DNA from: Candidatus Mediterraneibacter intestinigallinarum
GTDB taxonomy: Bacteria > Bacillota > Clostridia > Lachnospirales > Lachnospiraceae
Assembly: GCA_019119265.1 (NCBI GenBank)
Contig: DWXI01000190.1
Span: 1 to 33,676, forward strand
DNA: 33,676 nt
Direction: 5' to 3'
Under the pieces are notes generated by a model that ran no database searches, was not told the origin of the DNA, and was given only the letters and a program-made list of their open reading frames with translations. How positions within the stretch are numbered: the stretch's first letter is position 1; every line of letters starts with the position of its first letter. The position numbers and the translations under genes are program-made. Positions 2,886 to 6,985 of this stretch are shown here, piece after piece.

Positions 2886-2945
2886 CAAAGAGTCTGTCCT
2901 GAACACAGGAACGCAGGATCAACGCTGAATCGGCAGGGAAACCTC

Positions 2946-2974
2946 TTGACGAACTCTGCCTTATTCTATATAAT
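2946..2974 (+). promoter_or_regulatory. Promoter of the ileS T-box transcript
   Basis: TTGACG at 2946-2951 and TATAAT at 2969-2974 are separated by 17 bases. The predicted start of transcription is near 2981, immediately before the T-box leader. Confidence 0.8.
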
Positions 2975-2980
2975 TACCTT

Positions 2981-3315
2981 TGTATGAATTTCAACAGCAA
3001 AGGTGATGACGGAGACAGTAGGTCATATCCGAACATTCCAGCGAGCCGGGAAGGGTGCGAGCCCGGTATCAGTAGAATATTTCCGAATATCACTCCCGAA
3101 CCGCAGCCCCCAACGCATACAGAAGAAGCATGAATGCATGAGAGAGTAAGGGCTGACGCGGATCCCGCGTTAGAGGATACCATATGCGAACTGAATTGCT
3201 TTTATCACGGAATCAGACAGTGTGTATACGGGTGAAGGAAGTTCAAGTATGTTGTAACAGGTGGTTAAAACGAGAGAAATGGCTTTCGTCCTTTTACAGG
3301 ACGGGAGCCTTTTTT
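2981..3315 (+). ncRNA. T-box riboswitch (leader of ileS, isoleucine specifier)
   Basis: The leader shows the standard T-box parts in order. The Stem I 5' side contains GGAGACAGTAGG (AGTA at 3017-3020). The distal Stem I loop is GCGAGCCGGG...GTGCGAGCCCGG (3041-3066). A specifier-loop candidate, GAATATCAC, offers ATC (Ile) at 3089-3091 followed by a purine. The T-box sequence AACAGGTGGTTAAAACG lies at 3256-3272. TGGT in that box can pair with the ACCA end of uncharged tRNA-Ile. A terminator at 3281-3315 competes with the antiterminator. Low charged tRNA-Ile should therefore allow read-through into ileS. The ATC specifier agrees with the downstream gene. The unusual point is that the coding region begins 515 bases after the terminator. 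Confidence 0.88.
3281..3315 (+). terminator. T-box terminator of the ileS leader
   Basis: GGCTTTCGTCCT (3281-3292) pairs with AGGACGGGAGCC (3298-3309) as a 12-bp stem with two G-U pairs and a five-base loop, followed by six T at 3310-3315. Confidence 0.88.
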
Positions 3316-3350
3316 GTCAGATCTTAGAAAACAAGATTTGGACACCGCCA

Positions 3351-3480
3351 GACCGATCGATATGTCCATTGCGGACGCGCTTTCGCTCGGGCCGTAACGC
3401 AGCGGACACATATGGCTGCAAAGGACGCAGCCTTAGTGCCGGCGTTACTCTACGGTCCTTAATAGACATATCAATCGGTC
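3351..3480. repeat. Palindromic element A1 (90-nt structured core between pairing arms)
   Basis: Arms of 20 bases (3351-3370 and 3461-3480) are inverted copies with two mismatches and enclose a core of exactly 90 bases (3371-3460). The core can fold into nested helices: GTAACGC with GCGTTAC, CGG-CAC with GTGCCG, and an inner hairpin GGCTGC/GCAGCC. An element of the same design lies in the opposite orientation at 3667-3808; the two cores are about 81% identical by eye (17 differences). Several differences are compensatory within helices. Short ORFs crossing the element are not supported as genes. Confidence 0.8.
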
Positions 3481-3666
3481 CGACTCCGCGAAATCAGCAG
3501 TTTTTTAAAATCCGACAGAAAAAAGGGTTCCCGGGATGTCGGCTCAGGCCGGCAGGTGCTTCAGATCCGTTGGAAAACATATATGCTTCCAGGACAAGAA
3601 AGCGCTCCAATAAAAGGTAAGAAAGCCCCCACCTCTCCCGGTTTTGATTCAAGTACCGTTCTGGAC

Positions 3667-3808
3667 AGGCCCGATGCCGCAATATATCCATTAAGGGCCG
3701 TAAAGGAACGCCGGCACTTAGATCGCGTCTTTTGCGATCTTACGTGTCCGCTGCGTTCCGTCCCGAGCGAGAGCGCGCCCGCAATGGATATATTGCGGCA
3801 TCGGGCCT
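3667..3808. repeat. Palindromic element A2 (inverted relative of A1)
   Basis: The arms 3667-3692 and 3783-3808 are a perfect 26-bp inverted repeat, again around a 90-base core (3693-3782). Read on the minus strand, the core aligns without gaps to A1. The inner hairpin is AGATCGC/GCGATCT in place of GGCTGC/GCAGCC, with a similar loop (AAAAGAC against AAAGGAC). The element ends 21 bases before the ileS start, so it lies inside the ileS message and would form a very stable structure just before the ribosome site. Confidence 0.82.
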
Positions 3809-3829
3809 ATGACAGAAAGGAAATAAGAA

Positions 3830-6800
3830 ATGTATAAGAAAGTTCCCACAGATATGAATTTTGTCGGCAGGGAAAAGGAAGTCGAGAAGTTCTGGGATGA
3901 GAACCACATCTTTGAGAAGAGTATCGAAGAGCGTGAGGGATGTCCGGACTACATCTTCTACGACGGCCCGCCGACCGCAAACGGCAAACCGCACATCGGA
4001 CATGTGCTCACACGTGTCATCAAGGACATGATCCCGCGTTACCGCACAATGAAAGGCTACATGGTTCCGAGAAAGGCAGGATGGGATACCCACGGACTGC
4101 CGGTCGAGCTTGAGGTAGAGAAAGCCCTCGGACTGGACGGAAAGGATCAGATCGAGGAGTACGGCCTGGAGCCGTTCATCGACAAATGTAAGGAAAGCGT
4201 ATGGAAATACAAGGGGATGTGGGAGGATTTCTCCGGCACAGTCGGCTTCTGGGCTGATATGGAGCACCCCTATGTAACATACCATAACAGCTTCATCGAG
4301 TCCGAGTGGTGGGCATTGAAAAAGATCTGGGAGAAAGATCTTCTCTACAAAGGGTTCAAGATCGTTCCCTACTGTCCGAGATGTGGTACGCCGCTGTCCG
4401 CCCAGGAAGTGGCTCAGGGCTACAAGGACGTGAAAGAACGTTCCGCAGTTGTAAGATTTAAAGTAAAGGACGAGGATGCATACATCCTTGCATGGACGAC
4501 CACACCGTGGACACTTCCGTCCAACCTCGCCCTCTGTGTAAACCCGAACGAGGATTATGCGAAAGTAAAGGCAGCAGACGGATACACTTATTATATGGCA
4601 TGTGCTCTTCTTGACACAGTATTGGGAAGACTGGCTGAGGAAGGTAAGCCGGCATACGAGATCCTCGAGACATACAAAGGAACAGACCTTGAGGGCAAAG
4701 AGTATGAGCCGCTGTACCAGTGCGCGGCCGACGCAGCTGCAAAGCAGAATAAAAAGGCATTTTATGTGACATGCGACACATATGTTACACTGACAGACGG
4801 TACGGGAGTTGTTCACATCGCGCCGGCATTCGGTGAAGATGATGCGAATGTGGGAAGAAAATATGGTCTTCCGTTCGTACAGCTTGTAGATGAAAAAGGA
4901 AACATGGCGGAGTCTACTCCGTTCGCAGGTCTTTTCGTGAAGAAAGCGGATCCGGAAGTGTTGAAGGATCTGGACAGCAGAGGACTGCTCTTCGATGCAC
5001 CGAAGTTCGAGCACAGCTACCCGCACTGCTGGAGATGTGACACACCGCTGATCTACTATGCGCGTGAGTCATGGTTCATCAAGATGACAGCAGTAAGAGA
5101 CGACCTGATCGCAAATAACAACACGATCAACTGGATTCCGGAGAGCATCGGTAAAGGCCGTTTCGGCGACTGGATCGAGAACGTTCAGGACTGGGGCATC
5201 AGCCGTAACCGCTACTGGGGTACTCCGCTCAATATCTGGGAATGTGAGTGCGGACACATGCATTCCATTGGAAGTATTGCGGAGCTGAAAGAAATGTCCG
5301 ACAACTGTCCGGATGATATCGAACTGCACCGTCCGTACATCGACGCCGTGACGATCAAGTGCCCGAAGTGCGGTAAAGAGATGCACCGTGTTCCGGAAGT
5401 TATCGACTGCTGGTTCGACAGCGGATCCATGCCGTTTGCACAGCACCACTATCCGTTCGAGAATCAGGAACTCTTTGAGAAACAGTTCCCGGCAGACTTT
5501 ATTTCCGAGGCGGTAGACCAGACAAGAGGATGGTTTTACTCCCTGCTGGCGATCTCCACGCTGATCTTCAACAAGGCGCCATACAAGAATGTCATTGTCC
5601 TCGGACATGTGCAGGATGAGAACGGCCAGAAGATGAGCAAATCCAAGGGGAATGCGGTAGATCCGTTCGATGCCCTTGAGAAATACGGAGCCGATGCGAT
5701 CCGCTGGTACTTCTATGTCAACAGCGCTCCGTGGCTGCCGAACCGTTTCCACGGGAAAGCAGTGACAGAAGGACAGAGAAAATTCATGGGTACACTGTGG
5801 AATACTTATGCATTCTTTGTTCTCTATGCGAATATCGACGAGTTCGACGCGACAAAATATACACTGGAATATGATAAACTTTCCGTAATGGACAAATGGC
5901 TTTTGTCCAAGATGAATACGATGGTGAAGACCGTTGACAACAATCTTGAGAATTACCGCATTCCGGAGGCTGCCCGCGCGCTTCAGGAGTTCGTGGATGA
6001 CATGAGCAACTGGTACGTAAGAAGAAGCCGTGAGCGTTTCTGGGCGAAAGGAATGGAGCAGGATAAGATCAATGCATATATGACATTGTATACAGCACTT
6101 GTAACTGTTTCTAAGGCTGCAGCTCCGATGATCCCGTTCATGACAGAAGAGATTTACCAGAACCTTGTGCGCAGCATTGACAAAGATGCGCCGGAGAGTA
6201 TCCATCTCTGTCTGTTCCCGGAAGTGAATGAGGACCAGATCGACGCAGAACTGGAACAGAACATGGACAATGTCCTGAAGCTTGTTGTTATGGGGCGTGC
6301 CTGCAGAAATACATCCAATATCAAGAACCGCCAGCCGATCGGACAGATGTTCGTAAAAGCCTCATTTACCCTTCCGGAGTTCTATCAGGAGATCGTGGCT
6401 GACGAGCTGAATGTGAAGAATGTTAAATTTACGGAAGATGTAAGAGACATTACTTCATACAATTTTAAACCTCAGTTAAAGACAGTGGGACCGAAATATG
6501 GTAAAATGTTAGGTGGCATTAAGGCTGCCCTTGATTCTGTGGACGGTAACGCCGCAATGGATGAGGTCAATGAAACAGGCGCTCTCAAACTCGATGTAAA
6601 CGGACAGGAGATTACGCTGTTCCGTGAGGATCTTTTGATCGAGACGGCACAGATCGAAGGCTATGTGTCAGAAAATGATAATGGTATCACGGTAGTACTT
6701 GACACGAACCTGACACCTGAACTCCTCGAAGAAGGATTCGTCCGTGAGATCATCAGCAAGGTACAGACCATGAGAAAAGAGGCAGACTTTGAAGTGATGG

Positions 6801-6985
6801 ACCGTATCCGCGTAACTTATGACGGCAGTGAAAAGGCAGAGACGATCTTCGCAAAATATGCCGATGAGATCGCCGGGGAAGTGCTCGCCAACGAAGTGGC
6901 GAAGGCAGAGCCGGCAGGCTATGTAAAGGAGTGGAAGATCAACGGTGAAGCAGTTACAATGGGTGTGGAAAAGGAAGGAAAATAA
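3830..6985 (+). CDS. ileS: Isoleucyl-tRNA synthetase, eukaryotic-like (type 2) form
   Basis: This 1051-residue cytoplasmic class-I synthetase charges tRNA-Ile. The ATP-binding HIGH sequence is at 55-58 within DGPPTANGKPHIGH, and KMSKS is at 601-605 in GQKMSKSKGN. Cys-pair knuckles appear as CPRCG (about 184-188), CWRCD and CPKCG. The editing domain contains TTTPWTLPSN. The PPTANGKPHIGH and KMSKSKGN forms and the length above 1030 residues match the type-2 group that includes mupirocin-resistant enzymes, rather than the E. coli type (PPYANG, KMSKSIGN). The start has GAAAGGAAAT upstream. A T-box leader about 850 bases upstream controls it. glgP follows after four bases, so the two are probably co-transcribed. 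Confidence 0.96.
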   Translation: MYKKVPTDMNFVGREKEVEKFWDENHIFEKSIEEREGCPDYIFYDGPPTANGKPHIGHVLTRVIKDMIPRYRTMKGYMVPRKAGWDTHGLPVELEVEKALGLDGKDQIEEYGLEPFIDKCKESVWKYKGMWEDFSGTVGFWADMEHPYVTYHNSFIESEWWALKKIWEKDLLYKGFKIVPYCPRCGTPLSAQEVAQGYKDVKERSAVVRFKVKDEDAYILAWTTTPWTLPSNLALCVNPNEDYAKVKAADGYTYYMACALLDTVLGRLAEEGKPAYEILETYKGTDLEGKEYEPLYQCAADAAAKQNKKAFYVTCDTYVTLTDGTGVVHIAPAFGEDDANVGRKYGLPFVQLVDEKGNMAESTPFAGLFVKKADPEVLKDLDSRGLLFDAPKFEHSYPHCWRCDTPLIYYARESWFIKMTAVRDDLIANNNTINWIPESIGKGRFGDWIENVQDWGISRNRYWGTPLNIWECECGHMHSIGSIAELKEMSDNCPDDIELHRPYIDAVTIKCPKCGKEMHRVPEVIDCWFDSGSMPFAQHHYPFENQELFEKQFPADFISEAVDQTRGWFYSLLAISTLIFNKAPYKNVIVLGHVQDENGQKMSKSKGNAVDPFDALEKYGADAIRWYFYVNSAPWLPNRFHGKAVTEGQRKFMGTLWNTYAFFVLYANIDEFDATKYTLEYDKLSVMDKWLLSKMNTMVKTVDNNLENYRIPEAARALQEFVDDMSNWYVRRSRERFWAKGMEQDKINAYMTLYTALVTVSKAAAPMIPFMTEEIYQNLVRSIDKDAPESIHLCLFPEVNEDQIDAELEQNMDNVLKLVVMGRACRNTSNIKNRQPIGQMFVKASFTLPEFYQEIVADELNVKNVKFTEDVRDITSYNFKPQLKTVGPKYGKMLGGIKAALDSVDGNAAMDEVNETGALKLDVNGQEITLFREDLLIETAQIEGYVSENDNGITVVLDTNLTPELLEEGFVREIISKVQTMRKEADFEVMDRIRVTYDGSEKAETIFAKYADEIAGEVLANEVAKAEPAGYVKEWKINGEAVTMGVEKEGK

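Follow-up and report, generated by a model that had tools for sequence, protein, structure and literature searches.

BOX and RUP are MITE-like structured repeats, and repeats of this kind are short, dispersed and intergenic, with a conserved fold and a mover that is often unknown. BIMEs, in turn, are doublets of REPs. The bcr1 and ERIC repeats, from Gram-positives and enterobacteria, have likewise been described as MITE-like and structured (PMC2267715). REPs measure 20–40 bp according to the GTAG/CGTC survey (PMC3733652), the main text of which contains neither Clostridi-, nor Lachnospira-, nor Firmicutes, and the REPIN, an inverted REP doublet, has been presented as a replicative unit with predicted folding in single-stranded DNA or mRNA (Bertels & Rainey, 2011; PMC3116915). 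A different kind of candidate is the TwoAYGGAY motif, which was listed in 2010 as probably RNA, with the human gut, gamma-Proteobacteria and Clostridiales given as its range (Weinberg et al., 2010; PMC2864571); the next column of that listing, which we read as the cis-regulatory column, holds an "n" (PMC2864571).

The window analyzed here is a 33,676-nucleotide stretch of DNA from Candidatus Mediterraneibacter intestinigallinarum (contig DWXI01000190.1). A preliminary description, made from its letters alone, had noted two oppositely oriented structured elements ahead of ileS and proposed that they represent either a structured RNA or a fold-back mobile element, with REP-like DNA as an example. 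Our follow-up favors the fold-back mobile repeat as the better of the two, whereas the lead to a Y1 transposase was not supported. We conclude that a non-autonomous mobile element without coding capacity, of the MITE- or REPIN-like fold-back type, probably inserted here long ago, and that the two hairpins mark its two ends.

Results

Two outward-facing hairpins upstream of ileS

The elements had been placed correctly between the T-box terminator and ileS: the order of the locus is T-box terminator, left copy, right copy, and then ileS from position 3830 (Table 1). We take this ORF to be ileS by recognition, as the preliminary description also did, and its first 300 amino acids found a match in 58/58 genomes of the genus (E ≤ 0.001), some of these matches being weaker and paralogue-like. 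The T-box match itself (2997–3296) scored 59.6 bits (E 3e-12), under the Rfam gathering score of 93 for RF00230, and the terminator scan placed a terminator at 3281–3309, followed by T's.

Table 1. Coordinates of the features discussed in the text; positions refer to the window, except for the TwoAYGGAY matches, which are given by locus (L).
Feature	Position	Strand	Basis
T-box leader and intrinsic terminator (context, outside the element)	2997..3316	+	Rfam RF00230, terminator scan
Left copy of the structured repeat	3346..3487	-	Covariance model R1, 140.5 bits, E 3.2e-28 in genome
P5 (small GNRA hairpin), left copy, GCGAAAGC on the - strand	3379..3386	-	Sequence; GNRA count of copies
Interior between the two outward-facing copies	3488..3665	.	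Sequence
Right copy of the structured repeat, folded strand sense to ileS	3666..3807	+	R1, 148.4 bits, E 5.1e-30
P5 (small GNRA hairpin), right copy, GCGAGAGC	3767..3774	+	Sequence; GNRA count of copies
Presumed ileS (context)	3830..6985	+	ORF of 1051 aa
TwoAYGGAY	L143 7009-7175; L144 6650-6828; L145 6531-6694; L146 7232-7398	-	Rfam match

As described previously, the two elements have cores of 90 nt each (3371–3460 on the + strand and 3693–3782 on the − strand), which align without gaps and with 17 differences. The arms, which had been reported to pair, do so by Watson–Crick rules at 18/20 positions in element 1 and 26/26 in element 2. The remaining two pairs in the arms of element 1 read as C.A on the + strand and as G.U on the − strand, the first sign that this element folds on its minus strand. 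Both of the compensatory changes claimed earlier are present in the sequence, i.e., the swap in the inner hairpin (GGCTGC/GCAGCC versus GATCGC/GCGATC) and the change of a single helix pair (GTAACGC/GCGTTAC versus GGAACGC/GCGTTCC). A repeat finder reported a 112-nt inverted repeat at 82%. When compared with dinucleotide shuffles, element 1 gave folding z-scores of −5.7 (+) and −7.8 (−), and element 2 about −11.5 on each strand, with 0/200 shuffles equalling the real fold for all four strands. In the left copy, the folded strand is antisense to ileS, and the − strand folds better than the + strand.

A search of positions 2900–3900 against Rfam at E ≤ 5 produced no convincing match on a copy; the only match to enter one was GlmZ_SraJ, at 17.4 bits with a gathering score of 60. 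More broadly, no Rfam 15 family reached its gathering score on the hairpin in 59 distinct sources (two of which, L348 and L371, hold no hairpin), and we found no description of the repeat in the open-access PMC literature.

A dispersed repeat with a strongly covarying fold

A DNA search found 11 copies of the structured repeat, which is ~141 nt long, in the Mediterraneibacter genome that contains the window. R1, the covariance model built from these 11 copies, gave 18 matches in the same genome at 14 distinct places; the additional four arise where a palindromic copy is matched on its reverse strand as well. Among 61 genomes, 25 were positive with R1, comprising 25/37 members of the genus (our own included) and 0/24 genomes from other families. 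Searching Lachnospiraceae with a covariance model had been suggested in the preliminary description, and further copies proved to be abundant: with one genome per genus, 79/200 genomes of the family were positive with R1 at E ≤ 0.01, a threshold at which a few matches lie near 1e-3 and the best 16 matches per genome were scored. In a survey of the phylum, a second covariance model (R2) was positive in 4/5 genomes listed as belonging to the same family and in 1/393 others, where the sole match scored 61.6 bits (L201; genome G639, contig C14, 12296–12430). A pattern scan of named genomes yielded at least 80 loci with mostly Lachnospiraceae titles, and among the pattern matches listed were Candidatus Mediterraneibacter species, M. 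glycyrrhizinilyticus An427, Acetatifactor, Kineothrix and Herbinix; a few MAG titles naming Muribaculaceae or Gastranaerophilales we take as mislabelled. With regard to phage carriage, one pattern had 0 exact matches in viral_contigs. Two genomes, G002 and G097, each hold near-identical copies between unrelated genes, and in another (G170, C21, 12412–12928), three copies of the module lie in direct tandem with a constant period of 187 bp.

The folded strand runs, in order, through P1, P2, a three-way junction, P3/P4 and P5, and then back through P2 and P1. P1 is a long outer helix of about 20 pairs, with a sequence that is almost freely variable and arms that are often perfect. P2 is short, and P3/P4 forms a long hairpin with conserved internal loops, for which the family consensus reads CGyCGGtACTTAG ... 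CTTATGTACCGCTrCG. Overall, 18/51 unpaired columns are at least 90% conserved. The P5 loop is GNRA in 192/197 distinct eight-base readings (out of 199 distinct readings, 2 that were not eight bases long were dropped, and the opposite-strand readings of the palindromic copies L038 and L025 had been removed beforehand); position 3 is a pyrimidine in 0/197, and the closing pairs covary.

Among the 11 copies of our own genome, double-sided changes occur in 33/45 pairs, and 97.2% of cells are paired, compared with 74.3% after shuffling. In 104 copies from named contigs, which were recruited with R2 and had no part in building it, 42/45 pairs are double-changed and the covariation score is 0.767, versus 0.178 after shuffling and no more than 0.107 when the partners are slid. 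The earlier claim that the fold is kept rather than the sequence is supported; further copies are abundant, the covariation lies far above the controls, and neither a lack of copies in other genomes nor covariation at the level of background was seen.

Outward orientation, element ends and the filling of spacers

On named contigs, neighboring copies on opposite strands within 700 bp of each other faced outward, i.e., (−,+), in 12/12 cases, with gaps of 47–317 bp between the copies. One further pair of neighbors was direct, and single copies are also common. Among these 12, the pair at L274 belongs to an ileS leader, and the one at L253 is flanked by just 118 bp of sequence; the remaining ten have no ileS within the stretch examined. 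The preliminary description missed this general rule of divergent orientation, as well as the strand dependence, with a GNRA loop on one strand. We infer that a (−,+) pair is an element with a module at each end, and a lone copy a module at one end.

In Mediterraneibacter, the hairpin is located just inside the terminal repeats of non-coding elements of ~600 bp. The terminal repeat measures 22 nt, and five inward-facing pairs in this genus span 596–666 bp. With 3 mismatches allowed, there were 31 sites in G020, 14 in G002, 10 in G264 and 6 in G000, compared with 0 in G001, 0 in G018 and 1 in G028, where R1 gave no hairpin; the backward-pattern control gave 0 in all seven genomes. Since the terminal repeat is defined in Mediterraneibacter only, it is the hairpins and their orientation, rather than the element ends, that are known elsewhere. 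Inspection of 56 TIR junctions for a target-site duplication gave no clean rule, and many of the junctions adjoin stop codons.

The near-identical copies in G002 and G097 share a common right boundary, mostly 18–50 bp beyond the hairpin (once 6), and have a variable left boundary. In ten spacers examined in these two genomes, the repeat spans almost from stop codon to stop codon, and convergent genes flank the copy in 8/11 of their enlarged loci. A function related to convergent genes or termination was considered on the latter basis and rejected, as the family-wide set disagrees: of 104 hits, 26 were at an edge, and the other 78 had neighboring genes (oriented by simple ORF calls) that were both antisense in 29 cases, both sense in 22, convergent in 14 and divergent in 13. 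Within four of the five enlarged G097 spacers (L143–L146), there is also a TwoAYGGAY RNA (RF01731; Table 1), which is absent from the shorter fifth (L147); elsewhere, TwoAYGGAY was present in 3/19 named contigs scanned. The nesting in G097 suggests that the TwoAYGGAY motif likewise travels in mobile repeats.

Two gene pairs were traced across congeners, in six and four spacers, respectively, while two further loci had one flank only and gave no spacer. The fill differs among species: at the same locus there may be a complete hairpin, part of one, none at all, or one in the reverse direction, the last through inversion or an independent insertion. Most traced fills begin, as judged by eye, with a related terminal repeat. 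Nested palindromes that differ between species, and are sometimes oppositely oriented, occupy the convergent-pair spacers L340, L341, L344, L345, L346, L348, L370, L371, L372 and L374. In view of how strongly the orthologous convergent spacers diverge, some of the spread may be due to recombination among repeats.

It is possible, although we consider it doubtful, that the module is instead a genuine structured RNA (a ribozyme, or a protein-binding or regulatory RNA) expressed from each copy, so that the repeats would be its genes and their mobility secondary. Such an RNA would be in keeping with the GNRA loop (R at position 3 in the 192/197 readings) and its covarying closing pairs, the conserved unpaired columns, the excess of G-U over A-C pairs described below, and the nesting of a known RNA candidate in the same G097 spacers. 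It is harder to reconcile with the promoter scan of 2900–3900, which found 2 promoters versus 1.2 expected, neither of them in the interior between the copies, with the lack of a fixed neighbor-gene orientation among the 78 scored hits, and with the 12/37 genomes of the genus that had no R1 match.

Candidate movers

We found no autonomous copy or mover, nor was a gene-bearing element with the same ends seen in the loci read; on five contigs, the genes between widely spaced copies appeared by eye to be ordinary chromosomal genes. The Y1 transposase to which the preliminary description had pointed is not associated with the repeat, as PF01797 occurs in 42/79 carriers and 74/121 element-free genomes (Fisher p 0.31), and Y1_Tnp is absent from 16/28 genomes with 10 or more matches. 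A REP/REPIN system moved by a Y1 tyrosine transposase (RAYT) is therefore decidedly unlikely, even though inverted doublets, an intergenic location and a strand-specific imperfect hairpin would all be expected of one. CCGTAG does precede the inner hairpin in 9/11 own-genome copies (CCGTAA in the other two), but GTAG is not kept across the family, whose consensus holds one T of the region at 90%, and the reading of CCGTAG as a GTAG tag was dropped on that account. Furthermore, the module is far larger than the 20–40 bp quoted for REPs in the survey cited above (PMC3733652).

IS630, considered in view of the TA at some junctions, was also rejected: DDE_3 occurs in 7/79 carriers versus 13/121 element-free genomes (p 0.81), and a TA rule fails on the 56 junctions. 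Genes for Rpn nucleases, in contrast, co-occur with the repeat (66/79 carriers versus 73/121 element-free genomes, p 5e-4). The Rpn nuclease was nevertheless set aside as the sole mover, because 13/79 carriers have no Rpn match, including five that gave 10 or more hits of the repeat (G068, G071, G170, G226, G227), and because it is rarely adjacent, with an Rpn-like ORF on 2/118 loci when searched with two Mediterraneibacter queries that may miss distant relatives. The hints of Rpn proximity are an ORF between two direct copies (L069) and the window ORF at 1829–2797. The latter is directly upstream of the T-box and resembles the Rpn family, with TIGR01784 below its cut-off; its relatives are also found at the ileS locus of other congeners. 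An Rpn nuclease could still have some part in the movement of the element.

Strand preference and the ileS leaders of congeners

Across all copies, G-U pairs outnumber A-C pairs by 114 to 13, a count that includes two opposite-strand rows of palindromic copies (L038, L025). In a wider set the figures are 125 and 43, although the copies were recruited by models of the same fold, which favors paired matches and may lower the A-C counts. The excess of G-U over A-C implies that one strand is the folded strand. It also makes it very unlikely that perfect pairing is kept by arm-to-arm correction at the DNA level (template switching) instead of selection: the often perfect P1 arms, with their almost freely variable sequence, would suit such correction, but correction is strand-blind, and the internal helices with conserved bulges covary too.

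From 58 genomes searched, we took 50 ileS leaders, in which R1 detected both copies in 20, the sense copy alone in 7, the antisense copy alone in 2, and no copy in 21. Read by eye, about eight leaders look clean and several hold remnants (one, L187, is interrupted at a contig end). The 27 sense (right) copies have double changes in 27/45 pairs, with 45 G-U and 4 A-C, and the antisense (left) copies (18 distinct, 20 in total) have double changes in 22/45 pairs, with 32 G-U and 2 A-C; columns with any G-U versus any A-C number 16 to 2 and 11 to 2, respectively, the pair cells of these orthologues being non-independent owing to the relatedness of the species. Selection on the ileS transcript would predict reversed counts for the antisense copy, whereas the left copy shows its G-U excess on the antisense strand. 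Since the strand on which the left copy has preserved its fold runs antisense to ileS, the fold appears to serve the element and not the ileS leader. In two congeners, G007 and G265 (leaders L172 and L174, respectively), tandem repeats ahead of ileS are made up of the right hairpin's 3′ half, with the GNRA hairpin, a P1 arm and a CAGAA(A/G)GG box.

Placement in the leader thus does not account for the retention of the fold, and a cis-regulatory fold of the ileS leader RNA (for mRNA stability, translation or attenuation) is highly improbable: the right copy is indeed sense and lies 22 nt ahead of the ileS start codon, and a sense copy is present in 27/50 leaders, but in the left copy it is the antisense strand that is under constraint, 21/50 leaders have no detected copy, several are clean or eroded by eye, and most copies lie at other loci, the pair at ileS representing two of the 14 copies in its own genome.

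Discussion

We consider the observation to be real and strong, and regard the locus as a dispersed structured repeat of a known kind with an unusual, RNA-like end module. On the reading we favor, that of an old fold-back insertion, the element would have entered the ileS leader downstream of the T-box terminator and ahead of the ribosome-binding site. Its ~141-nt hairpin would be an end module near the terminus of the element, with the folded strand directed outward, and a trans-encoded protein may recognize this strand, either as RNA or as single-stranded DNA, and move the element. Selection or turnover among the copies would presumably keep the fold, and the pair at ileS would be passively co-transcribed upon T-box read-through. 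The best reading of the leaders is that the insertion at ileS is old, and absent or eroded in other congeners.

The evidence on whether the folded strand would be recognized in the form of RNA or of single-stranded DNA points both ways: the GNRA loop and the conserved unpaired bases favor RNA; the outward doublets and the finding of no promoter in the interior favor single-stranded DNA. A bolder version, which we think unlikely, would have the end module transcribed into a tertiary-folded RNA and recognized by an enzyme that mobilizes the element as an RNA-dependent or reverse-transcribed, SINE-like repeat, with two outward RNA ends per element.

The structured repeat is multicopy and strongly covarying, and roughly two fifths of the genera sampled from one family carry it (79/200). 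The sources scanned against Rfam 15 gave no match to it, and none of the open-access papers listed by our literature searches appears to describe it. In two Lachnospiraceae genera, its module is part of repeats that fill whole intergenic spacers. The repeat provides a system for asking what moves or maintains bacterial fold-back repeats that have no linked Y1 transposase. It also raises the question of whether TwoAYGGAY and other orphan RNA motifs might likewise belong to mobile repeats instead of acting as regulators.

How does the repeat compare with known systems? It resembles TwoAYGGAY in that both are orphan structured RNA candidates with a long, variable outer helix, and the two have spacers of G097 in common; TwoAYGGAY differs in its AYGGAY loops, as opposed to the GNRA loop of the module, and no RF01731 match falls at the hairpin. 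The likeness to MITEs lies in the terminal inverted repeats, which are defined in Mediterraneibacter only. Closest in working, as far as the descriptions cited go, are REPINs (PMC3116915) and TnpA-REP (PMC8266576). With REPINs and BIMEs, the repeat shares its intergenic, non-coding, multicopy nature and its occurrence as an inverted doublet, but a 141-nt three-way-junction module takes the place of the short hairpin, and there is neither a family-wide GTAG nor an association with Y1. Finally, the likeness to bcr1, ERIC, BOX and RUP is one of kind only, drawn from their descriptions and not their sequences, and the repeat described here is set apart from them by its spread over a family, its end-module architecture and its fixed outward strand.
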